Origin: Actinomycetes bacterium
Lineage (GTDB): Bacteria > Actinomycetota > Acidimicrobiia > Acidimicrobiales > RAAP-2
DNA length: 64,000 nucleotides
NCBI GenBank assembly: GCA_021793515.1
Contig: JAJYSP010000002.1
Span: forward strand, 1-64,000
Direction: 5' to 3'
Shown here: positions 35,256-54,708 of the stretch, one piece after another
Position numbering within the stretch: position 1 is the first letter of the stretch
Layout: every line of letters starts with the position of its first letter
Position numbers and translations under genes: made by a program
The notes under the pieces: generated by a model
Told to the model about the DNA's origin: nothing
The model's input: the letters and a program-made list of their open reading frames with translations, nothing else
Databases searched by the model: none

Positions 35256-35257
35256 AA

Positions 35258-35284: not shown

Positions 35285-35308
35285 ACCCGTTTCACGACGA
35301 CGCTCGAC

Positions 35309-36253: not shown

Positions 36254-36264
36254 GAGGTCACCGT

Positions 36265-36693
36265 CTAGGACGTCCCGCTCGAGGGCTGCTCGCCGGGGTG
36301 GTGTTCAGGGAGACCGAGTTCCGGCTGGTCACCGTCTGCGGCGGTCCGCTGGGCCTCGGCGAGTTCGGCTTGGTGCGCCTGCCAGGCCTTCAGCATCCCG
36401 TCGTACTGCGGCGCGAGACCGGGCTCACGCGTCGTGCGCCGCCGCCGCGGTGTCGTGCCCTCATGGAGAACCTTCCACCACATGTACACGGCGAAGACCG
36501 CCAGGAGTGGCCACTCGAACACGTACGCCCAACTCAGGGTGTTCCCACGCTCGGCGCGTCCCAACTCGAACCAGAACGCCACGGCGCAGAGCGCTAGGCC
36601 CGCCAGCAGCACCGCGTGCGTGCGCCACGCGTCCGCACCGCCCATCCGATGGGGCGACTCGCCGGGCGCGCTCTGACCCTTCGCACCGCTCAT
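36265..36693 (-). CDS. Small oxidase-island membrane protein, LSWAYVFEWP family
   Basis: 142 residues with two membrane helices: THAVLLAGLALCAVAFWF, and YVFEWPLLAVFAVYMWW. The block GNTLSWAYVFEWP is nearly identical in the protein encoded at the other end of the island (43783-44121). TACAGT (36705-36700) is 6 bases before the ATG, a leaderless-type start, although the intervening CAGGGG might also act as a ribosome binding site. The C-terminal 60 residues are soluble and polar. It is probably an accessory of the oxidase. No named family is known to me. Confidence 0.8.
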   Translation of the reverse strand: MSGAKGQSAPGESPHRMGGADAWRTHAVLLAGLALCAVAFWFELGRAERGNTLSWAYVFEWPLLAVFAVYMWWKVLHEGTTPRRRRTTREPGLAPQYDGMLKAWQAHQAELAEAQRTAADGDQPELGLPEHHPGEQPSSGTS

Positions 36694-36764
36694 CCCCTGA
36701 CTGTATCCCCCTGCGTGGAGCCACGACGCTGAGAAAACTTTCCGTTTCGCTAGAGTGCGGTGCG

Positions 36765-37586
36765 ATGACGAGCGACCCCGAGTTGAGACCCGAGGACGCC
36801 GACCATGCCCCCTCGACGCCGATAATCACCGAGGACGAGCGACGGGCGGCGTTGCGTGCCGGGCGCACACCGGTGCCCGCGAAGTTCATCTTGCTCGTGG
36901 TCGCGGCATTCGTCGTCCTCGGCCTCGGCGGCGTCGTGCTCGAACGCCTCGTGGGAACGCCGGGACAGTCGGTCTCCTCGAGCCCAGCGCCCGCGACGAC
37001 ACCGACGTTGCCGATCACACCCCACTCGATCCTGGGCCTGAAGATCCTCGCTGGGCGGCGCGCGCCCGGGTTCACCCTCACCGACGAGTACGGTTCGCCC
37101 TGGTCACTCGGAGCTCAGCGCGGGCGGGTCATCATCCTCGCCTTCTACAACCAAACGTGCAACGACATCTGCCCCGTTCTCGGATCAGAGTTGCGCACGT
37201 CGATCGCCCTGCTCGGCACGAACGCCGGACGCGTCGAGATCGCGATCGTCAACACCGACCCGAACCACGCCGGGGTCATTGCGCGGCCCGCCGCGCTCGT
37301 CGAACCCGGACTCGAGGGTCGCGCGAACGTCGTCTTTTTGACTGGTTCACTGCCATCGCTCAACGCCGTTTGGTCGCACTACGGCATCCAGGTTCGTGTC
37401 GGCCAGCCCGCGGCACCCGTACTCCACAACGACGTGTTGTACTTCATCACATCGCGTGGCGAGCTCCACGCGTCGGCGACGCCGTTCGCCAACGAGAGTC
37501 GCCAGGGCCTCTTCACACTCGATGGTGTGTCGCGGCGTGCCTTCGCCGCCGGCATCGCGGAGGTCGCCAGTAGTCTGTTGCCGTGA
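36765..37586 (+). CDS. SCO1/SenC-like copper chaperone, membrane anchored
   Basis: 273 residues. One N-terminal helix (about 44-66, FILLVVAAFVVLGLGGVVLE) anchors an exported thioredoxin-fold domain. The copper/thiol motif TCNDICP (C-x3-C) and a later His in APVLHNDVLYF match the SCO1 copper ligands. SCO1 delivers copper to the CuA site of CoxII. TAGAGT (36751-36756) lies 8 bases before the ATG at 36765. It is coupled to the next gene by GTGA. Confidence 0.88.
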   Translation: MTSDPELRPEDADHAPSTPIITEDERRAALRAGRTPVPAKFILLVVAAFVVLGLGGVVLERLVGTPGQSVSSSPAPATTPTLPITPHSILGLKILAGRRAPGFTLTDEYGSPWSLGAQRGRVIILAFYNQTCNDICPVLGSELRTSIALLGTNAGRVEIAIVNTDPNHAGVIARPAALVEPGLEGRANVVFLTGSLPSLNAVWSHYGIQVRVGQPAAPVLHNDVLYFITSRGELHASATPFANESRQGLFTLDGVSRRAFAAGIAEVASSLLP

Positions 37587-38260
37587 GTACACCAGACAGC
37601 GAGGTCCGAGCGAGTTCGTACGACCCCGCGTCGATGCCAGCGTCTTCATTGCTGACGAGCAAGGTGGTTTGGTACCGACGTCCCTGGTTCCTCATCGTCG
37701 TCGTCGTCGTCGTTGCAATCGCCGTCTCGGTGCTGTCGGACCTGCCCCACGCCGTTTCCAAGAGTGAAGATGCAGCGCAGCAGAACGGCACGATCACACT
37801 CATCAATAACGACATCGCCCCGTGCACCTACGCGCTGCACGAGAGCTTCCTCATCTACAACCGCCTGCGATCGGGGACGTTAAGTGCCGAAAATCTCCAG
37901 CAGGCACCGAACCTCCTGACCGAGGACGAAGCGTCGTGCACCCTGGCCAGTGGGCCGATCTATGACCTCACCAACAACATTCAGCCTGTCGACACCGCCG
38001 CCGGCAAGAAGATCGACGCCATGTACTCCGTCGTGATCACCTGGACCACCAACGACGCCAAAGACGCCATCTTCGACATCTCGATGGCGGTCAAGCAGCC
38101 CAAGAACACGGCGTGGGTACACGACCTCACCATTCGTCAGCGGTATCTCGCCCAGGACCGCGCACGGATCAACCAGTTGGTGGCCGAAGCGAGTCGACTC
38201 GTCGGCGTCCAGTTAAAGACTGTCAACGTGCCGCGGCTCGCGCCGCTGCTGGGCACGTAG
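37583..38260 (+). CDS. Membrane-anchored extracytoplasmic protein of unknown function
   Basis: 225 residues. One helix formed by WFLIVVVVVVAIAVSVLS (about 33-52), with GTC-repeat codons, anchors a soluble domain of about 170 residues with two Cys, in APCTYAL and ASCTLAS. A disulfide between them is possible. No family is recognised. Its GTG overlaps the SCO1-like stop, so the two are probably co-expressed, suggesting a role in oxidase assembly. Confidence 0.75.
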   Translation: MSTPDSEVRASSYDPASMPASSLLTSKVVWYRRPWFLIVVVVVVAIAVSVLSDLPHAVSKSEDAAQQNGTITLINNDIAPCTYALHESFLIYNRLRSGTLSAENLQQAPNLLTEDEASCTLASGPIYDLTNNIQPVDTAAGKKIDAMYSVVITWTTNDAKDAIFDISMAVKQPKNTAWVHDLTIRQRYLAQDRARINQLVAEASRLVGVQLKTVNVPRLAPLLGT

Positions 38261-38423
38261 CAACTCGCCGGCTGCGAGCGACGCCACCGGGCCTGAAGTC
38301 ACGTGGCCAGTTACGAGCACCACGGTGCCATCGACCGCAATCGAAGCGACCAACGACCTCTCGTGGCCCCGCCCAAGCGACCGACGTGACTACGAGACCA
38401 CGACCGTCACCGTCGTAACGCAA

Positions 38424-39191
38424 TCAATTCTTGGTACCGAAGAATCCCCGAGCCCGCTCCCGTCGCACCAGCCGATACAGCTCGGCGTCGGGGTCCTCTT
38501 CGGACTGGAGCCACTGCACCAGGTTCCAGAAGATGATCGGCAGGAACACGGCCGCCGAGACGATCCAGATAGATCCGACGCTGAGCTGCTGATCGGCCGC
38601 GAGTGATGGACCGTGCCCGGCGGTGTGGACGAACGCGTGGTACCACGACGAACGCGACATGCCGTTCATGTACGCCACGATCCAGACGAACCACATCACC
38701 ACGGCCGAGATGCCGATCCGATACGGACGGCTCGCGCGCGGCGTGAGTGGCGGTGACTCAATCAGGTCGCGGAAGAGCAACACGCCGCTCAGGCCCAGAC
38801 TCAGGAATTCAGCGACCGTGAGCCATGGATGTCTGACCACAGCGTCGACCACGGGCGCCACCCGCCACGCCACCGCAAGCGCGACAAACAGGCCGCCCGC
38901 GGCAATCGATCGCCCATGGTTGACCCCGGACGTCGATACGATCGTCTCACTACCCCACTGACCAACCGTCGGCGAACGGGACCAGATCGGCCACCGCTGT
39001 CCACCGAGGCGGCGCCACGGGGCTCCGGCGACGAATAGCACTGGCGCGATGAGTGAAAACGACTCGAACTGCAGTGCCTGGACGAACTCGTACTGGCGAG
39101 CCCACGACGCCAGCGGTGGGATCAGCCACACGAACCACCACGCCACGGCCAGCACCGCCAGCACGTCACGGAATCTGCGGTGGCTCGACAT
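38424..39191 (-). CDS. CtaG-like paralogue lacking the conserved histidines
   Basis: 255 residues with about six membrane helices. YEFVQALQFESFSLIAPVLF lines up without gaps with YFFVHMIEHIIIAFFVPMLI of the CtaG-like protein at 35333-36253, and both continue VAGAPW. The two His there (H76, H80) become Gln38 and Phe42. ADQQLSVGSIWI near the C-terminus matches ADQQIGAAILWI. The helix with WHVP is missing or replaced. It probably cannot bind copper as CtaG does. It lies directly downstream of the 37-residue gene and coxIII. Confidence 0.8.
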   Translation of the reverse strand: MSSHRRFRDVLAVLAVAWWFVWLIPPLASWARQYEFVQALQFESFSLIAPVLFVAGAPWRRLGGQRWPIWSRSPTVGQWGSETIVSTSGVNHGRSIAAGGLFVALAVAWRVAPVVDAVVRHPWLTVAEFLSLGLSGVLLFRDLIESPPLTPRASRPYRIGISAVVMWFVWIVAYMNGMSRSSWYHAFVHTAGHGPSLAADQQLSVGSIWIVSAAVFLPIIFWNLVQWLQSEEDPDAELYRLVRRERARGFFGTKN

Positions 39192-39206
39192 GACGCCGTC
39201 GCCCCG

Positions 39207-39320
39207 TTACTCCGACGGGTGGCGCTGGAAAAATCCCCAGATGAGCACACCGAACAACACGCCGAGTAATACGACCATCGTCTGGACCTGCGGCCCGATA
39301 TAGATGTCAACTCCCTGCAC
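39207..39320 (-). CDS. 37-residue single-helix membrane peptide in the cox operon
   Basis: GTG at 39320 follows AGGAGGT with 6-base spacing, one of the strongest ribosome binding sites in the window. It is followed by 36 more codons and TAA at 39209-39207. The product begins VQGVDIYIGPQVQTM and has one helix, VVLLGVLFGVLIWGFF, ending RHPSE. It fits between coxIII (29 bases) and the CtaG paralogue (15 bases). Small one-helix subunits are known in oxidases (for example subunit IV types), so a structural subunit is plausible. I have no named match. Confidence 0.75.
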   Translation of the reverse strand: MQGVDIYIGPQVQTMVVLLGVLFGVLIWGFFQRHPSE

Positions 39321-39349
39321 GATCGCTACCTCCTCTCGTCAAACTCGAG

Positions 39350-40006
39350 TTACAGCAGATAGAACATGGCGAAGAACAGCGCACCACTGAGTCCGATGAA
39401 GCCCCAGAAGTACGTCATGGCCGACACGTTCGCGCGGAACGACTGCGCAGTTGCGTGTGCCGAGAGCTCGGGTCGATCCCCACCGATCTCGCGGTGCAGT
39501 CGCAATGAGCGTGCCAGCGTCGTCTCAAGCCAGTAGGAGCCAACAACGAGCGTCGCGATATTGATCACGACGTAGCCGATGAACGTCGACGCGTACCCGC
39601 TTGAACCGGGATAGAAGGACAGCGCCGTCAACTCCCAGATCTGTAGCACCAGCGCGAGGACTGAGGCGAAGAGCGCGGTCCATCCCGCAACCTGCCAGTC
39701 CACGACGCCTCCCTTACGCAACCGCCACTGGCCGTAGATTGCCATGAGCGCGGCCAGGATCGTCAGCGAGAAGATCGTCCAGCCGTAGGCCGTGGGCGCC
39801 GTCACGTGGTTCGGTCGCCACAGCAGACCGTTGTTGCTCGAACGCAGATAGAAGTACGCGAACGCGAGCGACGCCAGCAGGAACGTGTACATCCCGATGA
39901 ACAACCGTCCACCGGACCACACCGACCCGATGTGTGCGCGCAACTCGAACTCGTCCTCTTCCGGGGTGGACGTGTACCCGTTTGCCTGTTTCATAGATCC
40001 ACTCAT
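39350..40006 (-). CDS. ctaE: Cytochrome c oxidase subunit III
   Basis: About 218 residues with five membrane helices, from the ATG at 40006 after a GGAG site. An upstream in-frame start at 40081 lies inside coxI. The features FELRAHIGSVWSGGRLFIGMYTFLLASLAFAYFY and the C-terminal AMTYFWGFIGLSGALFFAMFY resemble short five-helix CoxIII proteins. It stabilises subunit I and its proton uptake. The sequence is divergent from canonical CoxIII. Confidence 0.85.
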   Translation of the reverse strand: MSGSMKQANGYTSTPEEDEFELRAHIGSVWSGGRLFIGMYTFLLASLAFAYFYLRSSNNGLLWRPNHVTAPTAYGWTIFSLTILAALMAIYGQWRLRKGGVVDWQVAGWTALFASVLALVLQIWELTALSFYPGSSGYASTFIGYVVINIATLVVGSYWLETTLARSLRLHREIGGDRPELSAHATAQSFRANVSAMTYFWGFIGLSGALFFAMFYLL

Positions 40007-40022
40007 CAGCTGTTCTCCGTTC

Positions 40023-41972
40023 CTACGCCACGCCGCTGCCGTCATGGGACGACACAGCGGGTATGAGTTCGTCGCCGCCACCGAGGTCGGCGACCGCGGG
40101 AGCGCTCGCCTCGCTGTAGTGATACGGGTCGGTGAGGATCACCGGAATCCGCTCGAAGTTATAGGGCGGTACCGGGTTGGCGGTCTGCCACTCCAAGCCG
40201 AGGGACTCCCACGGGTTGGCGGGTGCCTTCTGTGGGTTGATGTAGAGCGACCACACCAAGTTAAAGAAGAAGATCAAGAACGAGAAGCCCAGCAGGAACG
40301 CACTCACCGACGAGAAGTCGTTGAGGCCCTGGAGGTTCTTCGCGTACGTGAACACCCTTCGTGGCTGACCGAGCAGACCGATGATGAACATCGGAAAGAA
40401 GGTCAGGTTGAAGAAGATGAACATGGTCCAGAAATGCCACAGACCGATCTTCTTGTTCATCATCCGTCCGGTCATCTTGGGCAACCAGTAGTACAGACCC
40501 GCCATGAAGGCAAAGAGCAAGCCACCCATGATCGTGTAGTGGAAGTGGGACAGAACGAAGAACCCACCGTGCACCGTCACGTTTACCGGAACATCGGAGA
40601 GGAACACACCAGTGACTCCACCGATCAAGAAGTTGAAGTAGAGCGCCATCGCGAAGAGCATCGGGATCTCGAATCTGATCTTCGCCTTATAGAGCGTCCC
40701 CATGCCCACCAGGTAGATGAAGCCCGTCGGAATCGAGATCAACTCGGTCGTGAGCATGAACAATGGCCGCATGTCGGGGTTGATGCCGCTCTGAAAGAGG
40801 TGGTGCTGCCACACGAAGAACGACAGCAGTGACACTCCGATCATTCCCGCGGCGCCCACCTTGTAGGCGAAGAGCGGTTTACGCGTGAAGACCGGCAGGA
40901 TCTCCCCGACGATGCCGAAACCGGGCAACGCCATGATGTAGACCTCAGGGTGGCCGAAGAACCAGAAGAGGTTCTCCCACAGGTACGAGCTACCACCGTG
41001 CTCGGTCACGTAGAACGCGGTCTGCGCAGTCTTGTCAAGGAGCCCGAACAGACCGGCCGCGAAGAGCGTCGGCGTTGCCAGAGTGAGCAGGGCGGCGGTG
41101 GCGAGGATCGACCACACAAAGATCGGCAGACGGCTCCAAGTCATACCCGGCGCGCGATAGTTAATGATCGTCACCGCGATGTTGAAACCCGCCGCCATCA
41201 TGCCCATGCCGATGACCGCGAATCCGAAGAGGTAGGACACCATGCCCGGACCGGCCTGGGTCTGCAGCGGCGCGTACCCGGTCCAGCCCGTCGGGAAGCC
41301 GCCGTAGGGCAGCGCCGAGAAGATCACCATGTAGCCCGCCACGAAGATCCAGAAGCTGAACGCCTCGATCCGCGGGAAGGCCATCCGACGCGAACCAATC
41401 ATGAGCGGTACGAGGTAGTTACCAAGTGGACCGACGACGATCGACGTCGCCATCATCATCATGATCGTGCCGTGCTCGCTGACGATCTTGATGTAGGTGT
41501 CGGCGCTGAAGTAGTGCGTCGTCGGATTGAGCAACTCGGTACGAATCGCCATCGCGAGCAGTCCACCGGTGAACATGAACAACAAAACGCCCACCACGTA
41601 CTGCAGGCCGACGGTCTTATGGTTCGTGCTGTAGCGGAAGTACTTGGACCAGTGGTCTAGCTCGACCTCCTTCTCCGGCTGACGTCCAGCCAACTTCGCC
41701 AGCGGGTAGTTGAGCGCCCCGATGCCGAGGAGCCAGCCCACGACTCCGAAGATCAACGCCAACGCGTCAGCCGTGGCGTTCTGGCCGCTGTTGACGATGT
41801 AGGCGTAGTTGCTCGAGATCGCGTTGCCCAGCCAGTGCCCAAAGAGATAGCCGAGGACGCCGCCAATAATCGCGGTGCCCAGGTGCTGACTCATCCAACC
41901 CGGACGTTGTGTCCACGGTGTACGCGACGTCGTCGACGCTTCACCGGTCGTCGCCAAAGGACGTTCCGTCAT
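40023..41972 (-). CDS. ctaD: Cytochrome c oxidase subunit I, atypical proton pathways
   Basis: 649 residues. Haem and copper ligands are intact: H167 (EHGTIM), H341 and Y345 in GHPEVY with E343, H390-H391 in WQHHLF, and H476 and H478 in SHFHY. The D-pathway Asp (GAPDMAFPRMNN in R. sphaeroides) is Arg196, in GSRRMAFPRIEA, and its Asn139 is Glu203. The K-pathway Lys of VPTGIK is Ile419 in IPTGFI. VHGGFF replaces HDTYF. About 110 extra N-terminal residues include two added helices. It reduces oxygen at haem a3-CuB. Its start follows GGAGAA. Confidence 0.97.
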   Translation of the reverse strand: MTERPLATTGEASTTSRTPWTQRPGWMSQHLGTAIIGGVLGYLFGHWLGNAISSNYAYIVNSGQNATADALALIFGVVGWLLGIGALNYPLAKLAGRQPEKEVELDHWSKYFRYSTNHKTVGLQYVVGVLLFMFTGGLLAMAIRTELLNPTTHYFSADTYIKIVSEHGTIMMMMATSIVVGPLGNYLVPLMIGSRRMAFPRIEAFSFWIFVAGYMVIFSALPYGGFPTGWTGYAPLQTQAGPGMVSYLFGFAVIGMGMMAAGFNIAVTIINYRAPGMTWSRLPIFVWSILATAALLTLATPTLFAAGLFGLLDKTAQTAFYVTEHGGSSYLWENLFWFFGHPEVYIMALPGFGIVGEILPVFTRKPLFAYKVGAAGMIGVSLLSFFVWQHHLFQSGINPDMRPLFMLTTELISIPTGFIYLVGMGTLYKAKIRFEIPMLFAMALYFNFLIGGVTGVFLSDVPVNVTVHGGFFVLSHFHYTIMGGLLFAFMAGLYYWLPKMTGRMMNKKIGLWHFWTMFIFFNLTFFPMFIIGLLGQPRRVFTYAKNLQGLNDFSSVSAFLLGFSFLIFFFNLVWSLYINPQKAPANPWESLGLEWQTANPVPPYNFERIPVILTDPYHYSEASAPAVADLGGGDELIPAVSSHDGSGVA

Positions 41973-42033
41973 CGCCCATTCTCCATTTCTTTCATCGTCA
42001 TCACCGTTGCATTAGTCATCATCGTTTCGCCGA

Positions 42034-43023
42034 TCACGAGGCCGGCTGCTTCGCGCCGTAGATCTCGGCGGTGCTGTAGGGCGTGGCTGATCCATCGGGG
42101 TAGTACCCACCCGCGGCACCGTTCGCGTCGGGCACGTAGGTCCAGGCGAACGGGGGCAGGAACTTGGTGTTCGCGGCGTTCGCTGCCTCGGTTGACTGTG
42201 CCCACTGCATGAACTGCTGCTGGGAGACCACACTGCCGTAGTTGTACATCGAGCCGTGCCAGATGCCGCAGAGCTCGCTGCAGCGCACCGTGAACCGCCC
42301 AGTCTGGTTCGTGGTCGTGTAGGCCACGTCGTTGATCTGGGGGTTCGCGTCTGCCTTCACGCTCAGCTGATAGGCCCAGAAGCTGTGGATCACGTCGAGA
42401 GACGTCACGTTGAAGGCGATCGTCGTGTGCACCGGCAGGACCAGTTGGGACGTCTCAAAGCCGCCGAAGGTCGGGTACCGGTAGGTGAACTTCCACTGTT
42501 GGGCGATCACCTGGACCGGGAGGACCTGGTTGCTGTTGGGCGACCAGGTCCCTGTCCCGGCCAGGGCCGCGGTCTCGGCCTTAATCGCGCCCGACGGTGA
42601 CCACACTGGGTTGGGCCCCTCCCCACCACCCGAGCCGTGGTTCACGACGAGTTCGACGGTACCGAAACCGGCCAAGAAGATCACGACGACTGAGGTGATC
42701 GTGATCCACGCAACCTGTACGGTGCGATTCGTTCGCGCGGCTTCCCCGCCCACCGGTTCGGGGCCACCACGCTTGGCGCTCCAGACGGCAATCGCGTAGG
42801 CGAGGTAGATCCACACACCGATCAACACTGGTATCGCGATGACGAACAGGACGTTGAAGTCGAACTGGTTCGACGTCGCCATGTCGGTCATGCGACCGGG
42901 TGGCACGTGCGGCCCGACGAGGAACCAGAACAACAGGTCCGCCGCTACCGAGAGGACGATCCAAATGATCGTCATACGCCGCAGGTGGTGAGTCTCATTC
43001 ATGGCTGCATTCTCCGCTGACAT
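42034..43023 (-). CDS. ctaC: Cytochrome c oxidase subunit II with CuA site
   Basis: 329 residues from the ATG at 43023. The CuA ligands are all present: H213 in DVIHSFW, C248, E250, C252, H256 and M259 in CSELCGIWHGSM. Three hydrophobic segments (about 17-37, 58-82, 102-122) precede the exported domain, one more than the usual two. A Gly-rich insert follows near residue 130. It receives electrons from cytochrome c or a copper protein. It starts 2 bases after the cupredoxin stop. Confidence 0.95.
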   Translation of the reverse strand: MSAENAAMNETHHLRRMTIIWIVLSVAADLLFWFLVGPHVPPGRMTDMATSNQFDFNVLFVIAIPVLIGVWIYLAYAIAVWSAKRGGPEPVGGEAARTNRTVQVAWITITSVVVIFLAGFGTVELVVNHGSGGGEGPNPVWSPSGAIKAETAALAGTGTWSPNSNQVLPVQVIAQQWKFTYRYPTFGGFETSQLVLPVHTTIAFNVTSLDVIHSFWAYQLSVKADANPQINDVAYTTTNQTGRFTVRCSELCGIWHGSMYNYGSVVSQQQFMQWAQSTEAANAANTKFLPPFAWTYVPDANGAAGGYYPDGSATPYSTAEIYGAKQPAS

Positions 43024-43025
43024 AG

Positions 43026-43709
43026 TTATCGCACCACTTCCAGGAATCCGCCCATGTAGTTCTGGGTCGACATCGGTCCTCCATTGCCATACAGGTAGCC
43101 GAGCCCGCACGGGACGAAGCACTGCCACGAGTAGCTGCCCGGTCCGGGGGTCTTAAAGCTGAACGTGATCGTGTTGTGCGGTGAACTGGTGTGGCACGGT
43201 CCCGACCCGCAGACTTGCGCATTAGCGTTCACGCCGATCATCGGCACACTGAGGCCGAGGGCGGGAACGGCGAACGTGTGTCCAACCCCATTGCCCGTGT
43301 TCGAGTCATAGACGCTGTACGGGTGACCGTTCAGGTTGGCCGTGCCAGTCAGCGTGCCCACGACCTGTCCCCACTGTTGATTACGCAAGGGACTCCCGGT
43401 GTCGTACTGGAGCACCGTCATGTGCACGACGGTGTTAGCCGGTAACTTCCACGTCGTGTCCTGCACCCACTGGTGCGTGTGGGGGTCCTTCACGAGGTAG
43501 GACACCCAGGTCGGATGCGGTCCGAAGCCGATCGCGCCCACGCTCTGAACGGTCAGGTTGACTGGCTGACCCACCGCTTGGGTGTTCGTGAAGTTCATCA
43601 CCCCGCCCGGCGTGCCCGGCGTGAGGAACGTGGCGACGCTCCACACGATCAGACCGACGACGACCAGGAAAGGTACGACAACGATGGCTAATCTTCCGCG
43701 AATCGACAT
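43026..43709 (-). CDS. Membrane-anchored cupredoxin-like protein with C-x3-C
   Basis: 227 residues. One N-terminal helix (8-28) leads to a beta-rich exported domain. The potential copper site has H144 (VGHTFAV), C197 and C201 in WQCFVPCG, and M213 or M219. The C-x3-C spacing is that of CuA, but the following His-x2-Met is replaced by Gly residues and GGPM. So it is neither a canonical CuA nor a blue copper site. It is the first cox gene, with a GAGGAG site. It may be an electron donor or assembly partner. Confidence 0.8.
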   Translation of the reverse strand: MSIRGRLAIVVVPFLVVVGLIVWSVATFLTPGTPGGVMNFTNTQAVGQPVNLTVQSVGAIGFGPHPTWVSYLVKDPHTHQWVQDTTWKLPANTVVHMTVLQYDTGSPLRNQQWGQVVGTLTGTANLNGHPYSVYDSNTGNGVGHTFAVPALGLSVPMIGVNANAQVCGSGPCHTSSPHNTITFSFKTPGPGSYSWQCFVPCGLGYLYGNGGPMSTQNYMGGFLEVVR

Positions 43710-43746
43710 ACCGCACTCCTCGTGAATCGACCTAGACGTATCGACG

Positions 43747-43775
43747 TTCAGAGAGTAATTCCCGACTTCTATACA
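43747..43775 (+). promoter_or_regulatory. Promoter at the right end of the oxidase island
   Basis: TTCAGA (43747-43752) and TATACA (43770-43775) are separated by 17 bases, reading into the small membrane protein gene. The region is divergent to the cupredoxin start at 43709, so expression of the two sides may be linked. Confidence 0.5.
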
Positions 43776-43782
43776 GTTGGTG

Positions 43783-44121
43783 TTGGTGCGACGCGAGACT
43801 AAGAATCCTCTTGTAATTCATATGGGTCTGCTACTCGCAGAAGTGATCTGCCTCTCGGCGTTCTACATCGAAATTCGTCGCGCAATGGGCGGAAATCACT
43901 TGTCTTGGGCCTACGTTTTCGAGTGGCCAATTTTCGCTGGCTACGCCGTCTACGTGTGGAAGAAACTTCTCAGCGACGATCGCACCCCATCACCTGATCC
44001 GACCCTCGAAGTCCGTATCGAACCACCCAGCGAGCCCGACGTAGCACTCGAGCGATACAACGACTACTTGCGTAGCGTCCACGGTAAGCGCGACGACGCC
44101 GATGAACCACCACCACCGTGA
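43783..44121 (+). CDS. Small oxidase-island membrane protein, LSWAYVFEWP family (second copy)
   Basis: About 112 residues. The helices VIHMGLLLAEVICLSAFY and YVFEWPIFAGYAVYVW surround the shared block GNHLSWAYVFEWP. The start is uncertain: TTG at 43783 is 7 bases after TATACA, while GTG at 43780 and 43786 are alternatives, and none has a ribosome binding site. Its relative at 36265-36693 bounds the other side of the island. The function is unknown; location suggests oxidase biogenesis. Confidence 0.75.
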   Translation: MVRRETKNPLVIHMGLLLAEVICLSAFYIEIRRAMGGNHLSWAYVFEWPIFAGYAVYVWKKLLSDDRTPSPDPTLEVRIEPPSEPDVALERYNDYLRSVHGKRDDADEPPPP

Positions 44122-44122
44122 G

Positions 44123-45859
44123 TCACTTGATGCCCTCATAGGCGAGCAGGTGGCGCAGCTGCGCGACCGCCGAGGCGGTCCCGGGCCCGCTCGACACGGG
44201 ATTATCAGGGATGATCCAGTGAAGACGGTCGTTGGCCGCGACGAGGAACACGACATTGGTGTGGACACTGGTCTGGTCCGTCGCACCCATCACGACACTG
44301 ATCCCATAGGCGCGCCACACGGATCGAAGAGCGGCCTGAGAGCCGGTCAGGAAGTAGAAGTCCGTCACCCGCGCGAGGCCTTTCTCGTCGATGTAGTGAC
44401 GAACGTCGCTCAAGGACTCGTGATAGGGATCGGAGGCCACCGCCACGATATCAAGCTTCGCGGTATCGACCAGCCCCTGGCGCACCTGGGCGATCTGACT
44501 CGCGAGCGACACGCAGCCCGAGAGACAGTTCGGATCAAGGAACGTGAGCAGGGTGAGTCGTCCACGGTGCTCGCCCAAGGTGTAGCGGTGCGCGAACTGA
44601 TCGGTCAACGTGAACGGCTTGGCCGGTGCGTTGACGGCCGTAACCGGACCGTTGTCCGCGAGAAAGAGCGTCGTCTCGACGCCGCTGAGCGTGGCCGCGC
44701 CCATGGCCACGCTCCCTACGAGCACCATCGCCGCCGCGAAAGCGGCGACTACCGATCCCGTGCTGCTGAGCAAGTCACGCGAGAGGCCTCGCGGCGTGAC
44801 AGGAACATCGGACTTCGACGGTGACGCGCACCAGAGGACCATCGCGAGCGCCGGCATCGTGTTGAGGTCGGTTGACAGGCCACCGAAGAGTGCCGTGTCC
44901 TGGGCGACGACCCAGAGCACGAGACAACCCGCGATCACGCTGATGACGGGCCAGCGACGTGCGGTTGCTCGGCTAAACCAGAGACCCACTGCACTGACGA
45001 CGAGCCAGAGCAGGATTACAACATTAAGCCCGCCACCCATGGTTGCGGCCAGCGAGCCGGCACCGCGCACGATCGCGGCGAGCCATCGCGGCTGCGCGAT
45101 GGCCGCCATGTAGCTTGCCATCTCGCTTAGGGCGTTGGTCGGCCCGCCGTGCCAGAAGCCCGCCGCAGGTAGGGCCTGTTCGACCGCACCAAGGCCAAGC
45201 ACCACGGCCATCGATCGTCTGGTCACGAGGCCGAACGAGCGTCCGAAGCGTTCGGGGTCGAGCGCGAGCCACGCGCCCACGTACGCGTAGATCAGGGCCG
45301 CACCCGGCCACGCGAAGAGGATGGTCGCACCGTGAACGAAGAGCCCACCGGCACCGTCACCCACCAGCCAGACGATTGCGGCCCACAGGGCCGACACCGC
45401 TGCGGCGACGCGACCCGTGACGCCGTTGGACACGAGCAGCAACACGCCGAGCCCGATCTGCAGCCAGGCCACGCCCGAGGCCAGCGTGATTGGGTGGCCG
45501 TTCCAAAAATTGACGGCGTGGCCGATCACCGTGCGTAGGGCCGATGGCGTGTTGCGCGACATGGGCGCCACGACGTCGTTCGCGAGTCCGAGGGGCATCG
45601 AGGCCTGGAACTGCAAGAGGCCGTCGATGACCCAAAACACACCGAACCCCACGCGAAGGTGCGCTCTCGAACGAGATTCATTGAGACCGAGGTTCGACAG
45701 GTTGAACCGAGCGATCCCGCCGAGCACCGTGGCGGCGATGAGGATCACTACGGCCACGACGCCGATCCAGATGGTCATGGTGACCAGACTCGTGTGTCGA
45801 AACAGTGCAACGACAAAGGGGTTCGTCAGATCAATCGAACGCTGACTCATTCCCGGCAT
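44123..45859 (-). CDS. Multi-pass membrane protein fused to a SCO1-like domain
   Basis: 578 residues. About nine helices fill residues 28-410, and a redoxin/SCO1 domain occupies about 425-578. The latter has FTLTDQF, the copper motif CLSGC in DPNCLSGCVS, and a His in SVHTNVVF. This is the second SCO1-like domain in the island. The membrane part resembles no family I know. It follows nusB by 18 bases, so it may be expressed with efp-nusB. The ATG at 45850 is an alternative start. It is likely a copper-insertion or redox factor. Confidence 0.85.
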   Translation of the reverse strand: MPGMSQRSIDLTNPFVVALFRHTSLVTMTIWIGVVAVVILIAATVLGGIARFNLSNLGLNESRSRAHLRVGFGVFWVIDGLLQFQASMPLGLANDVVAPMSRNTPSALRTVIGHAVNFWNGHPITLASGVAWLQIGLGVLLLVSNGVTGRVAAAVSALWAAIVWLVGDGAGGLFVHGATILFAWPGAALIYAYVGAWLALDPERFGRSFGLVTRRSMAVVLGLGAVEQALPAAGFWHGGPTNALSEMASYMAAIAQPRWLAAIVRGAGSLAATMGGGLNVVILLWLVVSAVGLWFSRATARRWPVISVIAGCLVLWVVAQDTALFGGLSTDLNTMPALAMVLWCASPSKSDVPVTPRGLSRDLLSSTGSVVAAFAAAMVLVGSVAMGAATLSGVETTLFLADNGPVTAVNAPAKPFTLTDQFAHRYTLGEHRGRLTLLTFLDPNCLSGCVSLASQIAQVRQGLVDTAKLDIVAVASDPYHESLSDVRHYIDEKGLARVTDFYFLTGSQAALRSVWRAYGISVVMGATDQTSVHTNVVFLVAANDRLHWIIPDNPVSSGPGTASAVAQLRHLLAYEGIK

Positions 45860-45877
45860 GTCGAACCGACCAATCGA

Positions 45878-46276
45878 TCAACCGAGTTCGTCGACGCACG
45901 CGGCGAGTACACCGTTCACGAATGACGGCGAGTCCTCCGTCGAGAACGTACGGGCCAGTTCAACGGCCTCGTTGAGCACGACTGCCGTCGGCGGCGGATC
46001 AGCGAGCAGGAGCTCGGCGATCGCCAGCACCATGACCAATCGATCGACCAGCGCCAAGCGTTCGATCGTCCAGTCGACCAAATTGTTCCCAATGAGCGCG
46101 AGGGCGCGCGCTTCGTTGAGCTCGGCGGACTCCACCAGCGTCACGGTGTAGGGGTCGGGAGTCAGCGTTAACCGTGGCAGGATCTCTCGGGTCGAGCGAC
46201 CCTTCATTGTCGCCTCGTAGAGGATCTCGAGGGCTCGCTCTCGGGCTCGATGTCGCTGACTACCGAGGTCGTCCAC
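45878..46276 (-). CDS. nusB: Transcription antitermination factor NusB
   Basis: 132 residues. GSQRHRARERALEILYEA and LNEAVELARTFSTEDSPSFVNGVL are characteristic. It binds boxA RNA with S10 and aids rrn transcription, such as the operon at the left edge. It starts at GTG with a TAGTG overlap on efp, a common efp-nusB pair. Confidence 0.96.
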   Translation of the reverse strand: MDDLGSQRHRARERALEILYEATMKGRSTREILPRLTLTPDPYTVTLVESAELNEARALALIGNNLVDWTIERLALVDRLVMVLAIAELLLADPPPTAVVLNEAVELARTFSTEDSPSFVNGVLAACVDELG

Positions 46277-46839
46277 TAGGCGCGGGTGATGTAGTCGCCG
46301 GTGCGGGTGTCAACTTTGATGACCTCACCCGGGCCTACGAAGAGCGGGACTTGCACTACGTAGCCGGTCTCGAGTGTCGCCGGCTTGCGTGCCCCTGACA
46401 CCCGGTCGCCCTGGATTCCCGGTTCGGTCTCGGCGATCGTCAACTCGACCGATGCCGGTAGCTCGATGCCGATGATCTCGTCGTCGTGCAGTACCAGCAT
46501 GGCCTTGCCGGTCTCGACAAGGAAGTTCGCCGCGTCGCCCAAACTCTTGGAGGACACGGGGACCTGGTCGTAGGTCGACTGATCCATGAAGACGTAGTCG
46601 TCCCCGTCGCGGTAGAGGTATTGCATGTCGCGTTTGTCGATGATGGCCTGTTCGAGGCGCTCGTCGCCGCGGTACGTACGTTCGATCACGGCGCCGGAAC
46701 GGGCATTGCGCAGCTTGGTACGCACGAAGGCGCCGCCCTTGCCGGGCTTGACGTGCTGGAACTCGACGACGGTAAAGAGTCCGTCTTCGACCTTGAGGGT
46801 GATGCCGTTCTTGATGTCGTTGCTAGAGATGGCGGCCAT
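46276..46839 (-). CDS. efp: Elongation factor P
   Basis: 187 residues from the ATG at 46839. Three beta domains are seen: the KOW-like N-terminus with VEFQHVKPGKGGAFVRTKL, with the modified-residue tip Lys in PGKGG, then YLYRDGDDYVFMD, then the C-terminal YVVQVPLFV and DTRTGDYITRA. It rescues ribosomes stalled at polyproline. An in-frame start at 46872 precedes it but lies upstream of a GAAAGG site, so 46839 fits better. Confidence 0.97.
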   Translation of the reverse strand: MAAISSNDIKNGITLKVEDGLFTVVEFQHVKPGKGGAFVRTKLRNARSGAVIERTYRGDERLEQAIIDKRDMQYLYRDGDDYVFMDQSTYDQVPVSSKSLGDAANFLVETGKAMLVLHDDEIIGIELPASVELTIAETEPGIQGDRVSGARKPATLETGYVVQVPLFVGPGEVIKVDTRTGDYITRA

Positions 46840-46872
46840 GAGCCTGAACCTTTCGGGGAAGTTGCGCGCCAC

Positions 46873-46878
46873 AGTCTA
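46873..46878 (-). promoter_or_regulatory. -10 element of an internal efp promoter
   Basis: TAGACT on the minus strand, about 34 bases before the efp ATG, leaves a short leader with a ribosome binding site. It suggests efp-nusB can be transcribed apart from the aro genes. Confidence 0.4.
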
Positions 46879-46904
46879 GGCAACGCTTGCACGCCCGCGG
46901 CGCG

Positions 46905-47420
46905 TCAGGTCTCGAGCAGCTCCGCTACGGCCACCAGCGCGAGATCGTAACTGAGCGCGCCGAAGCCCGCAATCGTCCCGTTGACAACGCCGGCCAGGGT
47001 GCTGACGTGGCGAAATGGCTCTCGGGCGGCGGGATTGGATAGGTGGACCTCGACCTTCACCCCGGGAAAGATGGCCAACGCGTCGGTGAGCGCCCACGAC
47101 GTATGGCTCAACGCCCCCGCGTTGATCACGATGGCGGCCGAACGACCACGCGCCCCGTGGACCGCCTCGATAAGGTCACCCTCGAAGTTCGACTGGACGT
47201 GCCGGACGCTAAGCGCAAAACGCTGGGCCGCGATGCGCACACGCTCGACGTGCTCTTCGAGTGTCGTCGATCCGTACACCGAGACATCGCGCACCCCGAG
47301 TTGGTCGAGGTTCGGTCCCGACAGCAACAGCAATTCCCGAGTCGCGCCGCTTCGGTCCTCGACCACCGTCACCATCCCTCGAGTCTGGGCACCGTCGGTC
47401 CCGACAACAGTCGCGGACAC
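46905..47420 (-). CDS. aroQ: 3-dehydroquinate dehydratase, type II
   Basis: 171 residues including a non-conserved N-terminal tail of about 30. LLLSGPNLDQLGVRDVSVYG holds the catalytic Tyr and Arg. INAGALSHTSWAL holds the catalytic His, and REPFRH follows. It dehydrates dehydroquinate. GTG at 47420 and ATG at 47375 are both in frame; the start is unsure because neither has a good ribosome binding site. Confidence 0.93.
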   Translation of the reverse strand: MSATVVGTDGAQTRGMVTVVEDRSGATRELLLLSGPNLDQLGVRDVSVYGSTTLEEHVERVRIAAQRFALSVRHVQSNFEGDLIEAVHGARGRSAAIVINAGALSHTSWALTDALAIFPGVKVEVHLSNPAAREPFRHVSTLAGVVNGTIAGFGALSYDLALVAVAELLET

Positions 47421-47463
47421 CCGGTGGTCATCGGCGTCACACTATCGCCGCTTGCGAACGGCA

Positions 47464-48516
47464 TCAAGCCTCCAGCCGGAAGCGATCGATGGTCCGTGCG
47501 ACCACGTCGACCGCTACGCCCGGCACCACCTCGAATCCCGCGGGTCCATCGAGCACGAACGTCAGATCGTGATGCGCCTTCTTGTCACGCTGCATGACCT
47601 CGATGAGTCGTTCGCTCGTCATCGCGTTCGGTAGCGATCTCGGCAGCCCGAATGCGTCGAGCACGGCGTCGTGGACGTGGACCGAGTCGTCGCCGGTTCG
47701 CCCGAGTTCGCGGGCCAACCGAGCGGCAAACGCGAGCCCGATCGCGACCGCCTCACCGTGGCGTAGCTCGTCGGGGTCACGAGACAAGGCGAGGAGTTCG
47801 ACGGCGTGTCCGAGTGTGTGACCGTAGTTGAGCAGGGCCCGGCGCCCCTGCTCGCGCTCGTCGTCGGACACGATGGCGGATTTCAGTCCCACGCACAACG
47901 CGACCAGGTCCTCGCGCGTGGCGGCGGCGATCTCCTCGACATCGCGTCGCTCGAGGAGCCAGCACTTGGCTACCTCACCGCGACCGCTTCCCCACTCGCG
48001 CTCGGGCAACGTGTCAAGGACTTCGGTATCGCAAAGCACGCCGAGTGGCTGATGAAAGGCGCCGACCAGGTTCTTGCCGACCGTGAGGTTGACGCCGGTC
48101 TTGCCCCCGATTGCCGCATCCACCTGCCCGACCAGGGACGTCGGGACCTGAATCACACCGACGCCGCGCAGGTAGACCGCCGCGGCGAAGCCGGCGAGAT
48201 CCGTCACCGCACCCCCGCCGACGCCCACCACCACGTCGTCGCGTGACAGGCCCAACGAGATGAAACGTTCGCAGAGGTACTCCACCGCCGCCAACGTCTT
48301 GGCGGTCTCCCCGTCGGGGACCACGACTACGTGCTGCTCAAGTCCAGTGTCCAAGTCGAACCAGGACCGGTCCACGAGGCCCGCCGAGGTCACGATCGCC
48401 GCGGTGCGCGCCCGCGGTGCGCGCCGCGCAATCACCTCGGTGAGCTCACGTCTCGCGCCGGCTCCCGTGCGCACCTCGTAGCCACGTTCGCCCAGGGCGA
48501 CGTCGAAGTTCATCAC
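47464..48516 (-). CDS. aroB: 3-dehydroquinate synthase
   Basis: 350 residues. VVVVPDGETAKTL, VVGVGGGAVTDLAGF, PTSLVGQVDAAIGGKTGVN and GRGEVAK carry the NAD and zinc ligands. It makes the first ring of the shikimate pathway. GTG and ATG lie next to each other (48516 and 48513) and overlap the aroK stop. DAHP synthase and EPSP synthase are not in this cluster. Confidence 0.97.
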   Translation of the reverse strand: MMNFDVALGERGYEVRTGAGARRELTEVIARRAPRARTAAIVTSAGLVDRSWFDLDTGLEQHVVVVPDGETAKTLAAVEYLCERFISLGLSRDDVVVGVGGGAVTDLAGFAAAVYLRGVGVIQVPTSLVGQVDAAIGGKTGVNLTVGKNLVGAFHQPLGVLCDTEVLDTLPEREWGSGRGEVAKCWLLERRDVEEIAAATREDLVALCVGLKSAIVSDDEREQGRRALLNYGHTLGHAVELLALSRDPDELRHGEAVAIGLAFAARLARELGRTGDDSVHVHDAVLDAFGLPRSLPNAMTSERLIEVMQRDKKAHHDLTFVLDGPAGFEVVPGVAVDVVARTIDRFRLEA

Positions 48517-49004
48517 GCCATCATCGCACGCAGCACGTCGTCTACCACCACTTCGAGTGGTCCCGTGGCGTCGATGCGTGCTCGAGCAACGTCGCGATAC
48601 CAGGCGCCACGCCGCGCCCGCAGCGCGGCGATCGCCACGCGCGCGTCGCCACCGAGCAGTGGTCGGTCGCCGCCATCCACCCGCGACACGAGAACGTCAT
48701 CGGGCGCGTCGAGCCACACGGTCAGCTCGTTAGTGAGGATCTGGCGCGCGGCCTCGCTCTCGACGACGCCGCCTCCCGTGGACACGACGTCCTCGTGCGC
48801 GACGCTCGCGGTCAGCGCCGCGACCTCGTCGAGGCGAAACTGTGCCTCACCTACCGCGCGCAGGTGATCGGGAGCCGGTGACGCCACCATGGCGGCGAGC
48901 ACCTCATCTGTGTCGATGACCCGACAGCCCAGTCGCTCCCCCACGGCCCGCGCCACGGTTGTCTTACCCGCCCCGGGCAGGCCGACCAATACCAGCCGGG
49001 CCAC
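48513..49004 (-). CDS. aroK: Shikimate kinase
   Basis: 163 residues. The P-loop GLPGAGKTT (8-16), the Asp of DTDEV and STGGGVV bind ATP, metal and shikimate. It is small and single-domain. It starts at GTG 2 bases after the aroC stop. Confidence 0.95.
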   Translation of the reverse strand: MARLVLVGLPGAGKTTVARAVGERLGCRVIDTDEVLAAMVASPAPDHLRAVGEAQFRLDEVAALTASVAHEDVVSTGGGVVESEAARQILTNELTVWLDAPDDVLVSRVDGGDRPLLGGDARVAIAALRARRGAWYRDVARARIDATGPLEVVVDDVLRAMMA

Positions 49005-49006
49005 GA

Positions 49007-50191
49007 CTACTCGCGCGCCGAGGGCGCCGCCCCGAGCTGTTCGACGTAGGAGCGAAAATTGCGCGAGAACTCCGCCACCGAATCACCGCCGAACTTACGT
49101 TGGGTCTCACTCGCGAGCACGAGTGCGGTCATGGCCTCGGCGACCACGCCCAACGCCGGAACGGCGGTGACGTCAGTGCGCTCTTTGAACGAGACCGTCG
49201 ACTCACCCGTCGTCAGGTCAACGGTCTCTAGCACCGGTCGATTCAACGTCGCGAGTGGCTTCATCGCGACCTTGGCGATAATTGGCGCCCCCGACGAGAT
49301 CCCACCCTCGAGGCCGCCGGCGTGGTCTGACCGGCGGGCGAATCCTCCACCGCTCGACGCGCCTTCGTCACGGACGATTGCGTCGTGGGCCACGCTGCCA
49401 CGCTGTGACGCCTGGACCATCCCGTCACCAATCTCCACCGCCTTGACCGCCTGGATACTCATCAGTGCCCCGGCGAGCAGTCCGTCGAGCTTGCGGTCCC
49501 AGTGAACGTGGCTGCCGATCCCGACTGGCACGCCGTAGGCGATGACCTCCGCGATTCCGCCGAGGGAGTCCCCTTGTTTGGCGGCGGCCTTGATCTCGGC
49601 GATCATCAACTGGGCGGCGGCCTCGTCGAAGCACCGCACCTCGCTCTGGTCGACTGTCTCGAGGTCGTGGACCGACGGACGTTTGTCCGTGGGCGCCGCC
49701 ACCGAACCGATTCGCACGACGTGGCTGAGCACGGAGACGCCGATAGTCGCCAACAGTGACTTCGCGAGTGATCCCGCCACGACTCGCGCGGCGGTCTCAC
49801 GCGCGCTCGCGCGCTCGAGCACGTCACGGGCGTCGTCGAAGCCGTACTTCTGCATACCAGCCAGGTCGGCGTGACCCGGCCGAGGCGCCGTCAGCTTCTT
49901 GCTCGGCGTGCCCGGGGCCGCGGACATCTCGACCTCCCACTTGGGCCACTCGGAGTTGAGGATCTCGATGGCGACCGGCGAGCCAAGCGTGCGCCCGTGG
50001 CGGATACCGCCGGTGAGGCGCAACACGTCGCGTTCGAAGCGCATCCGTGGGCCACGACCGAAACCGAGTCGCCGCCTCGCTAGCTCGTCGGCGATCTGCT
50101 CCTCACGGATCTCGAGACCGGACGGCAGGCCCTCGATGATGACCGTCAAGGACGGTCCATGACTCTCACCCGCGGTCAGGAATCGCAACAT
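49007..50191 (-). CDS. aroC: Chorismate synthase
   Basis: 394 residues. It is the final shikimate enzyme, FMN dependent. MLRFLTAGESHGPSL is the N-terminal signature. GFGRGPRMRFERD, ASARETAARVVAGSLAK and GGGFARRSDHAGG are further family blocks. TAGAAT (50203-50198) is exactly 6 bases before its ATG, a leaderless start opening the aroC-aroK-aroB-aroQ unit. Confidence 0.97.
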   Translation of the reverse strand: MLRFLTAGESHGPSLTVIIEGLPSGLEIREEQIADELARRRLGFGRGPRMRFERDVLRLTGGIRHGRTLGSPVAIEILNSEWPKWEVEMSAAPGTPSKKLTAPRPGHADLAGMQKYGFDDARDVLERASARETAARVVAGSLAKSLLATIGVSVLSHVVRIGSVAAPTDKRPSVHDLETVDQSEVRCFDEAAAQLMIAEIKAAAKQGDSLGGIAEVIAYGVPVGIGSHVHWDRKLDGLLAGALMSIQAVKAVEIGDGMVQASQRGSVAHDAIVRDEGASSGGGFARRSDHAGGLEGGISSGAPIIAKVAMKPLATLNRPVLETVDLTTGESTVSFKERTDVTAVPALGVVAEAMTALVLASETQRKFGGDSVAEFSRNFRSYVEQLGAAPSARE

Positions 50192-50197
50192 CGCACG

Positions 50198-50203
50198 ATT
50201 CTA
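50198..50203 (-). promoter_or_regulatory. -10 element of the aro operon, leaderless
   Basis: TAGAAT on the minus strand lies 6 bases (CGTGCG) from the aroC ATG. It sits in the 31-base gap after nfuA. No -35 is obvious. Confidence 0.5.
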
Positions 50204-50222
50204 GGACAGGCGACTCCGGCGG

Positions 50223-50876
50223 TTAGTGGTCGTCGGAGTAGAAGGGATTCACACCCGAGGCGTGGTCCGTGACGTCGACGACACTCGTCAGTTCCGGGAT
50301 GGCTTCGACGAGCGCGGTCTCGATGCCCTGGGACAGCGTCATCCGACTGAGCGAGCACCCCTGGCATCCACCACCCATCATGATGTACGCGACCCGCTTC
50401 TCTTCGTCCAGAGCGACCAAATCGGCGTTGCCGCCGTGGGCCGCGATGGAGGGGTTAATCGTTGACTCGAGGACCTCGATCGCGCGCTTGGCGAGTGGTC
50501 CGTCGACTCCGAAGGCGATAATGTCTGCCGGCACGCCGGGGTGCAGCTCCTCGGCCGTGGGCGCGTTGGGGTTGACGAGGATCAAGCCGCCCCCGCCGTC
50601 GGGTGCGAACTCCAGACGGCTCCCCCGCAGCCGCGCCACGCTCGCAGCTGGGACGACGATGGTCACGTCACCGTCGCGCCCGATGGCCGCATCGGCTGGC
50701 GCATCCACACGGTCAGAGAAATAGAGGTCGTAGGTGTACCCACCCGCACGGGTACCCGTCACCTCGATGAACAGGGCCAGGTCCTCGCTGCGCTGCTCGT
50801 TTGCGAGCGCGTCGATCACCACGTTGCGCGCTTCATCGGTGAGAGTGAGGACGTCAAATGTCTCGACGGTAGTCAT
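50223..50876 (-). CDS. Iron-sulfur cluster carrier NfuA-like protein
   Basis: 217 residues from the ATG at 50876. The N-terminal half resembles a degenerate A-type (HesB-like) domain and has no Cys. The C-terminal NifU domain has GGGCQGCS with the C-x2-C cluster site. It probably carries Fe-S clusters to targets. TAGACT (50888-50883) 6 bases upstream fixes the start over the ATG at 50882. Confidence 0.9.
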   Translation of the reverse strand: MTTVETFDVLTLTDEARNVVIDALANEQRSEDLALFIEVTGTRAGGYTYDLYFSDRVDAPADAAIGRDGDVTIVVPAASVARLRGSRLEFAPDGGGGLILVNPNAPTAEELHPGVPADIIAFGVDGPLAKRAIEVLESTINPSIAAHGGNADLVALDEEKRVAYIMMGGGCQGCSLSRMTLSQGIETALVEAIPELTSVVDVTDHASGVNPFYSDDH

Positions 50877-53964: not shown

Positions 53965-54708
53965 TTAGAGGATCGCGTTGCTCGCGGGGAAATGCACCTG
54001 GAGCCAGAGTACGAACGTGTGCCACGCGCCACTGATCTCGGCCAGACCAATCAGGATCAACATGACCCCGCCGATACGTCCGATGAGTCGGTGGTGCCGG
54101 CGCAACCAGTTCGACGCCGTGGCCATCCACTCGGTCGCGATGGCCGCGACCACGAACGGTAGGCCCAGTCCGAGGCAGTAGACGAACGCGAGGATCGACC
54201 CGCGCAGTGCGGTGGCCCCCGAGGAGGAGGCCGCGAGACCCAAGATCGCCGCCAGCGTCGGCCCGATACACGGCGTCCAGCCCAGCGCGAACAGCACCCC
54301 CAACAACGCGGCACCGAGCACCGAGGCGCGTGGCAGGTGCTGAACGCGCCGCTCGCGTTGCAGCCACGACGAGGGCCACCATCCCGCGAAGAACAGTCCG
54401 AGCACGATCGTGATCGCGCCGAAGGCAATCTCGAGTCCTCGCTGGTGGGTACGCAGCGAACTGCCGAGCCCGCCGAAGACCGCGCCGAAGCTCACGAAGA
54501 CGAGCGCGAAGCCCACCACAAAGGCGAGGGAACCCGCGACCGCCCGTCCGCGGCCGGTGCGACCGTTGATGCCGCCGGTGGCACCGCTCAGGAACGCCAG
54601 GTAGCCGGGCAGGAGGGGCAGGACGCAGGGTGAAATGAACGACACCAGTCCCGCCGCGAAGGCCAGGGGGAACGCGGCGATCAGCGAACTCGGCAGGGCT
54701 CCGATCAC
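53965..54708 (-). CDS. Cytochrome c biogenesis protein CcdA-like
   Basis: 247 residues with six membrane helices. The two redox Cys lie in ISPCVLPLLPGYLAFLSG and GWTPCIGPTLAAILG, the CcdA signature. It carries electrons from cytoplasmic thioredoxin to extracytoplasmic proteins, possibly including the SCO1-like chaperones. It starts at GTG overlapping menD (GTGA). Confidence 0.93.
   Translation of the reverse strand: MIGALPSSLIAAFPLAFAAGLVSFISPCVLPLLPGYLAFLSGATGGINGRTGRGRAVAGSLAFVVGFALVFVSFGAVFGGLGSSLRTHQRGLEIAFGAITIVLGLFFAGWWPSSWLQRERRVQHLPRASVLGAALLGVLFALGWTPCIGPTLAAILGLAASSSGATALRGSILAFVYCLGLGLPFVVAAIATEWMATASNWLRRHHRLIGRIGGVMLILIGLAEISGAWHTFVLWLQVHFPASNAIL

Follow-up and report, generated by a model that had tools for sequence, protein, structure and literature searches.

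A single protein of 578 residues, encoded on the minus strand of the window (the whole stretch of 64,000 nucleotides analysed here), joins a tandem DoxX/DoxD-like membrane domain to a C-terminal SCO1/SenC domain beside the genes of a cytochrome oxidase. On balance, this fusion is rather likely to be a Sco copper chaperone integral to the membrane, serving the CuA centre of the neighbouring oxidase. Probable roles can be named for both parts: the Sco role for the adjacent oxidase is reasonably supported, whereas the membrane domain as a redox or copper partner is a role that we infer.

One reading frame with two parts

The fusion occupies one open reading frame of 578 codons running from 45859 to 44123 on the minus strand; frame 1 of the plus strand over the same region contains stops. 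Its features are as follows.

44123..45859 (-): fusion gene, 578 aa, with an N-terminal helix, a tandem DoxX/DoxD-like membrane domain, a last helix and a SCO domain
45719..45784 (-): segment 1, residues 26-47, from hydropathy and K+R count; N terminus predicted outside
45260..45676 (-): repeat 1, residues 62-200, four segments with the motif DGLLQFQASM, from profile comparison and alignment
44819..45229 (-): repeat 2, residues 211-347, four segments, from profile comparison and alignment
44696..44761 (-): segment 10, residues 367-388, a membrane stalk preceding the SCO domain, from hydropathy
44225..44620 (-): SCO1/SenC domain, residues 414-545, from Pfam, a structure model and fold searches
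44513..44527 (-): C445-LSG-C449, from the sequence
44261..44263 (-): H533, at the position of the Sco-loop histidine, from sequence and alignment

The sequence-only reading had proposed that a membrane domain and a SCO1-like domain are fused, and the single frame together with the SCO1-SenC match, the one Pfam domain above cut-off in the protein, confirms it. Its remark that no standard family shows this order also holds, as neither Pfam nor NCBIfam has a model that spans the membrane part; the NCBIfam scan of the whole protein gave no match near any cut-off.

The search for the same fusion in other genomes, which that reading had suggested, was productive. With the window protein as query, 71 of 100 genomes match somehow, many through the SCO or membrane part alone, and in 48, the window's own genome included, a hand count finds a single frame whose alignment starts no later than residue 15 and ends no earlier than residue 545. 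A search with the G091 protein matches 64 of the 128 genomes around G091, 35 of them (hand count) with a single alignment over both parts, from query position 10 or earlier to 470 or later. Unbroken frames in this many genomes refute the idea that two genes were merged through a sequencing or assembly error, which is vanishingly improbable; the fusion is more than chance. Rfam models at gathering scores had no match in 34000-50500, a tRNA search of the whole window found none, and a promoter and terminator scan of 43600-47000 returned 0 and 2 sites, not above shuffled sequence.

The SCO domain

Pfam SCO1-SenC (PF02630) matches residues 414-545 with an E-value of 1.1e-10 and 42 bits against a cut-off of 22.8, and the CLSGC motif and later histidine pointed out beforehand are found there as C445, C449 and H533. 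All three residues are kept together in 53 rows of the 79-row alignment. Of the remaining 26, 16 are frames shorter than 460 aa, one is truncated where its contig ends, and in nine the C-terminus is degenerate, missing or of another kind. A search of PDB sequences with the fusion yields matches at the SCO part, the best being a Bradyrhizobium protein (E 4.2e-4). The model of residues 405-578, built from seven sequences, has a mean pLDDT of 71.5, with residues 525-533, H533 included, forming a modelled loop below 50. Foldseek places Sco proteins in all of its best 15 rows, and VIA-align does so in rows 1-9, with Z from 18.4 (yeast Sco1) to 15.9; ResA reaches a Z of at most 14.6, which outranks a few Sco structures, the S. 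lividans one (14.3) among them. By sequence, by its CxxxC and distal histidine, and by a predicted Sco-type thioredoxin fold, the C-terminal domain is SCO1/SenC.

A duplicated DoxX/DoxD-like membrane domain

Of the nine helices previously placed at residues 28-410, the multi-helix membrane part stands and the count does not: ten hydrophobic segments lie within residues 26-388, with borders placed by hand from the hydropathy profile, the weakest being segments 2 and 9 (peaks 1.39 and 1.61). Hydropathy is consistent with a 4+4 helix arrangement; the AlphaFold2 model of residues 1-405, from four sequences, has a pLDDT of 40 and is too poor for fold comparison. Over 56 fusion rows, lysine and arginine average 13.5 in the 66 residues of five inside loops against 4.9 in 158 outside residues, and this excess places the N terminus and the SCO domain probably outside, as predicted from charges.

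Family searches with the membrane part give little above background. Among 32 diverse members searched with Pfam at E up to 10, no family matches more than four; the lowest E-value is 1.7e-4 (DUF2955, one member), and one member each matches DoxX_3 (E 0.068) and MauE (E 0.64). The window's fusion protein has no DoxX or DoxD match above the Pfam cut-off, NCBIfam returned sub-threshold rows alone for five members, and PDB sequences searched with a membrane-part profile gave two rows, at E 1.2 and 1.4.

Profile comparison is more informative. The two halves of the membrane part match each other in hhalign at 99.0%, and profile-profile comparison with DoxX/DoxD proteins of the phylum gives 91.9% for half 1 and 77.1% for half 2, rising to 97.6% and 95.3% once two single-repeat bridge proteins are added. 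A shallower DoxX set compared directly reaches only 23% and 0.6%; control profiles of CtaG, NrfD and COX1 all stay below 1.5%. Membership of the halves in MauE was rejected at profile scores of 1.7% and 3.2%. Single-repeat relatives show similar faint matches, all below cut-off: one in the window's genome (L118) to DoxD (E 0.0089) and DoxX (E 0.013), and one in G438 (L114) to DoxX (E 0.0016). Because the halves match one another and both score with DoxX/DoxD profiles, the membrane domain is read as a four-helix unit, akin to DoxX/DoxD, that has been duplicated within the protein, an assignment drawn from profile similarity.

Repeat 1 carries conserved D79, Q83, Q85, M88, H122 and Q134, and repeat 2 carries Q228, D321, T330, D331 and N333. 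Among the best conserved polar or sulphur residues across 79 rows, D331 is kept in 79, Q83 in 78, T330 and N333 in 77 each, D79 and Q85 in 76 each, M88 and Q134 in 74 each, H122 in 71 and D321 in 66. D79 to M88, H122, D321 and T330 to N333 are predicted on the outer side, the same as the SCO domain. M88 and H122 are the sole well conserved methionine or histidine columns in the membrane part, the next being kept in 59 and 47 of the 79 rows.

No membrane-part cysteine is conserved family-wide: the best columns hold one in 33 and 30 of 79 rows and occur together in 15, and 31 rows have none of the four commonest. This disfavours a membrane cysteine relay of the DsbD/CcdA or VKOR kind as a route for the thiol electrons of the earlier suggestion. 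Membership of the membrane part in CcdA/DsbD or VKOR was likewise dropped, as the 79 rows share no conserved cysteine pair.

Gene neighbourhoods

A nusB-like frame ends 18 bp upstream of the fusion, with an efp-like frame beyond it (both named by appearance), which fits the earlier placement downstream of efp-nusB. The oxidase operon on the other side, overlooked by the sequence-only reading, is the more telling neighbour. Past the fusion the order is a small plus-strand gene, then p227, COX2, COX1, a COX3-like gene and CtaG.

45878..46276 (-): nusB-like frame immediately upstream of the fusion gene; named by appearance and after the sequence-only reading
43777-44121 (+): small gene that runs towards the fusion gene on the other strand
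43026..43709 (-): p227, with WQCFVPCG...M and for that presumed cupredoxin-like; Pfam gave no match
42034..43128 (-): COX2, Pfam COX2 at 3.5e-15, with CuA ligands CSELCGIWHGSM and DVIHSF; the true start is probably downstream of the listed one
40023..41972 (-): COX1, Pfam COX1 at 1e-126
39350..40081 (-): COX3-like, by position and appearance; no Pfam match
38424..39191 (-): CtaG (Caa3_CtaG), Pfam at 8.9e-19
36450..37586 (+): a further SCO protein, encoded on the other strand, Pfam SCO1-SenC at 2.2e-08

A relative of p227 (L087:6527-7087) matches Cupredoxin_1 at 5.7e-05, below cut-off, and frames related to p227 also occur in NrfC/NrfD clusters. CtaG is present as two paralogues, at 38424-39191 (-) and 35333-36253 (-), which flank the plus-strand SCO gene and a gene of 225 aa (37583-38260). 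A CcdA/DsbD-type gene with a Pfam DsbD_TM match lies about 8 kb from the fusion (54076-54675, minus strand).

Twenty-two further fusion loci, the window excluded, were compared over flanks of unequal length, with counts made by hand. nusB is directly upstream in nine, cox2 and cox1 are nearby in ten and CtaG in twelve; by profiles seeded from the window and a few of the counted loci, cox or CtaG occurs in 14, and neither occurs in eight within the stretch covered. All ten cox2 neighbours keep C-x-E/Q-x-C-x3-H-x2-M, which we take to be the CuA motif of COX2. The small convergent gene of the window has a profile match in every one of the ten loci with cox2 and cox1, its profile being seeded from the window and two loci.

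The eight loci lacking cox and CtaG in the stretch covered have only a partner gene of about 370-450 aa. Adjacent to the fusion or overlapping it, this gene is found in 15 of the 22 loci (L061-L071, L077, L078, L080 and L100); its profile was seeded from eight of them, which match by construction, so that L061, L062, L065, L070, L077, L078 and L100 are the independent cases. Each of the 22 loci thus has at least one of cox, CtaG and the partner gene. Loose patterns in 13 partner frames find a lipobox-like motif in seven and an Asp-box-like motif in six, and two members scanned against Pfam gave no match.

Around other members of the membrane family the surroundings differ. Among 19 such loci (L081-L099), NrfC, NrfD and cupredoxin-like genes occur in seven (L087, L088, L093, L094 and L097-L099), by profiles seeded from three or four of those seven. 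A family of about 235 aa occurs in five (L081-L084 and L089), where it adjoins unfused membrane copies, and seven show neither context. At L093:7433-9157, a membrane domain of the same family ends in a cupredoxin-like domain in place of SCO, with cupredoxin-like genes, NrfC and NrfD downstream.

Distribution and descent

Within the window's genus the full-span fusion is found in 47 of 61 genomes, one of them the window's own. It is also found in G080 and recurs in other families of the order. A class-wide search matches some part in 37 of 296 genomes at 1e-10, and across the phylum the membrane profile finds matches in 14 of 396 genomes. In G556, inside the phylum and outside the class, the membrane part and the SCO part lie in different frames (L107), with a CtaG-like gene before them and a partner-like gene after them, as judged by eye. 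Viral contigs yielded no relative, and a plasmid search with an unfused copy gave no match.

Several relatives appear to have lost the SCO part, as judged from their sequences. L053 and L054 end without it, and in L042, L100, L097, L057 and L098 it is degenerate. Of these, L097, L057 and L098 retain the membrane part, no longer carry the SCO motif and are located in NrfC/NrfD clusters (L057 being the gene of L099). Such absence or decay suggests that the membrane part can do without SCO.

A first tree of 81 SCO rows, for which L107 was relabelled as fused, requires three changes between fused and unfused. The second, of 76 rows (54 fused and 22 unfused), omits L093 (cupredoxin-like), L097, L042 and L100 (degenerate) and L135 (long and unfused), and its free tree needs two. 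A single origin appears in 15% of the bootstrap trees, and the one-clade constraint has a p-AU of 0.618; the fused SCO domains may thus have arisen once, which the tree allows and does not prove. Among the 32 rows of a membrane-domain tree, a 100/99 branch separates 18 fusion-type rows (14 with SCO, two degenerate and L054 and L058 without it) from 14 others, and the SCO label needs three changes.

A probable membrane-built Sco protein and alternative readings

Known systems frame the reading. Sco proteins act in the assembly of CuA, and in some bacteria their thiols and those of COX2 are kept reduced by reductants of the TlpA type, according to PMC9145763 and PMC6696091. DoxX genes, as described in parts of PMC5413113 and PMC12452194, occur in GIG operons responsive to gold and copper and in bufferin clusters. 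Taken together with fusions of membrane units to redox domains, these precedents lead us to regard the protein as a Sco built into the membrane. Its SCO domain would face outside and bind copper through C445, C449 and H533; it would then pass copper to COX2, reduce the COX2 cysteines, or do both, and it may also deliver copper to the neighbouring cupredoxin-like protein. The tandem membrane domain would carry the SCO domain in place of a single anchor, and it would most likely act as a partner, through redox chemistry or by presenting copper, so that the SCO site can always be charged again.

Copy numbers bear on this CuA-chaperone reading. Thirty genomes were chosen for carrying the membrane family, each at least 94% complete. 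COX2 is found in all 30, and at E 0.001 14 of them show the fusion and no other SCO match; in one of these (G040) that match is below the curated cut-off. The search misses divergent copies: it finds none in G091, whose fusion carries the motif, and none in G090. The window's genome has two further SCO genes, one of them 6.5 kb from the fusion, and the main CuA chaperone there may therefore be another protein. Also counted against the reading are the eight loci without cox or CtaG, the SCO-less relatives, the weak kinship with the shallow DoxX set, the low confidence of the membrane model and the position of H533 in a poorly modelled loop.

What the membrane domain contributes can be stated in several ways. 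In a sharper form of the main reading, somewhat less likely than not, it may link the quinone pool by electron transfer to the cysteines or the copper of the SCO domain, with no cysteine relay. DoxD in thiosulfate:quinone oxidoreductase and MauE with its thioredoxin-like partner probably work as quinone-linked redox partners, and both halves are kin to DoxX/DoxD; D331 and Q83, near-invariant on the predicted outer face, would suit a quinone site that is itself putative, and against the parallel the MauE profiles do not match the halves. Similar pairings exist in one protein of MauE, AhpC/TSA and PqqD (L164) and in a DoxD and Rieske fusion (L163). The latter lies in the window's genome (G000:C11:8329-8748 and following), with a second COX2 gene about 4 kb away. 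Quinones are substrates of NrfD-type complexes, and the seven loci with NrfC, NrfD and cupredoxin-like genes fit such a role, while the other 12 of the 19 lack NrfC/NrfD. CcdA/DsbD-type genes occur in 29 of the 30 genomes, the window's included, which means that a reductant route is already present. VKOR is found in 26 of the 30, with no match in the window's genome; given both counts, a membrane thiol relay arising for want of another route was rejected.

Copper offers a second partner role, which we think somewhat unlikely: the membrane domain could take up or present copper to the fused SCO, somewhat like YcnJ of Bacillus or CtiP of Corynebacterium, and the sequence-only reading had raised copper import as well. 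M88 and H122 on the predicted outer side, the cupredoxin-like domain fused at L093 and the cupredoxin-like genes near other members point this way; being the only well conserved methionine and histidine, the two residues make a thin copper path. The copper-related clusters with DoxX genes agree with this idea, although the passages on them in PMC5413113 and PMC12452194 do not name copper binding by DoxX. Multi-domain copper proteins do act in oxidase assembly, as parts of PMC13344008 and, for CtiP, of PMC9145763 describe. It is unlikely that the membrane domain is an anchor alone, holding the SCO domain and docking it to the oxidase. One anchor suffices for usual Sco proteins, and cox genes adjoin the fusion in ten of 22 loci, which would suit docking; polar residues that are near-invariant in fused and unfused copies alike point instead to an activity of the membrane domain.

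Relation to known systems and significance

Usual Sco proteins have a single membrane anchor. With Sco1/SenC chaperones (BsSco, ScoI of B. japonicum, yeast and human Sco1) the fusion shares the SCO domain and fold, the CxxxC and distal histidine and the predicted outside location, and it differs in its ten-segment membrane part. Each half of that part is related by profile comparison to DoxX/DoxD (PF07681, PF04173) and has four hydrophobic segments, yet the whole is duplicated, lacks a Pfam match, has its own motifs (DGLLQxQ and TDxN) and is fused to SCO. MauE-redoxin fusions such as L164 likewise pair a small membrane module of the DoxX-like kind with a thioredoxin-fold domain, but theirs is a different membrane family with a single repeat and a redoxin rather than SCO. 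YcnJ (CopC-CopD-YtkA) and CtiP (which contains Caa3_CtaG) are also multi-domain membrane proteins tied to oxidase copper supply; their membrane domains are different, and the descriptions consulted name no SCO domain. Both the SCO and the DoxX-like parts have relatives, whereas neither their joining nor the duplication nor the membrane family appears to have been described in the libraries and literature searched. Among the titles listed from that literature, which covered few subscription papers, none was on a DoxX-like and SCO fusion.

A broader proposal, rather doubtful at present, sees in the duplicated DoxX-like domain the core of a membrane family, so far undescribed, that would attend to copper proteins outside the cytoplasm through a shared outer-face polar site for quinone or copper. 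If so, the family would be fused to SCO for CuA assembly, once to a cupredoxin-like domain, and would lie partly beside NrfC/NrfD and cupredoxin-like genes; the fusion itself would be a one-piece machine for charging and delivering copper. How Sco proteins obtain copper and electrons outside the cell is still an unsettled question for several bacteria (PMC6696091), and DoxX proteins in copper-related clusters have no known role according to the relevant passages of PMC5413113 and PMC12452194. A natural DoxX-like and SCO fusion, conserved through families of one order and often beside oxidase genes, ties these two questions together and offers an experimental handle on both.
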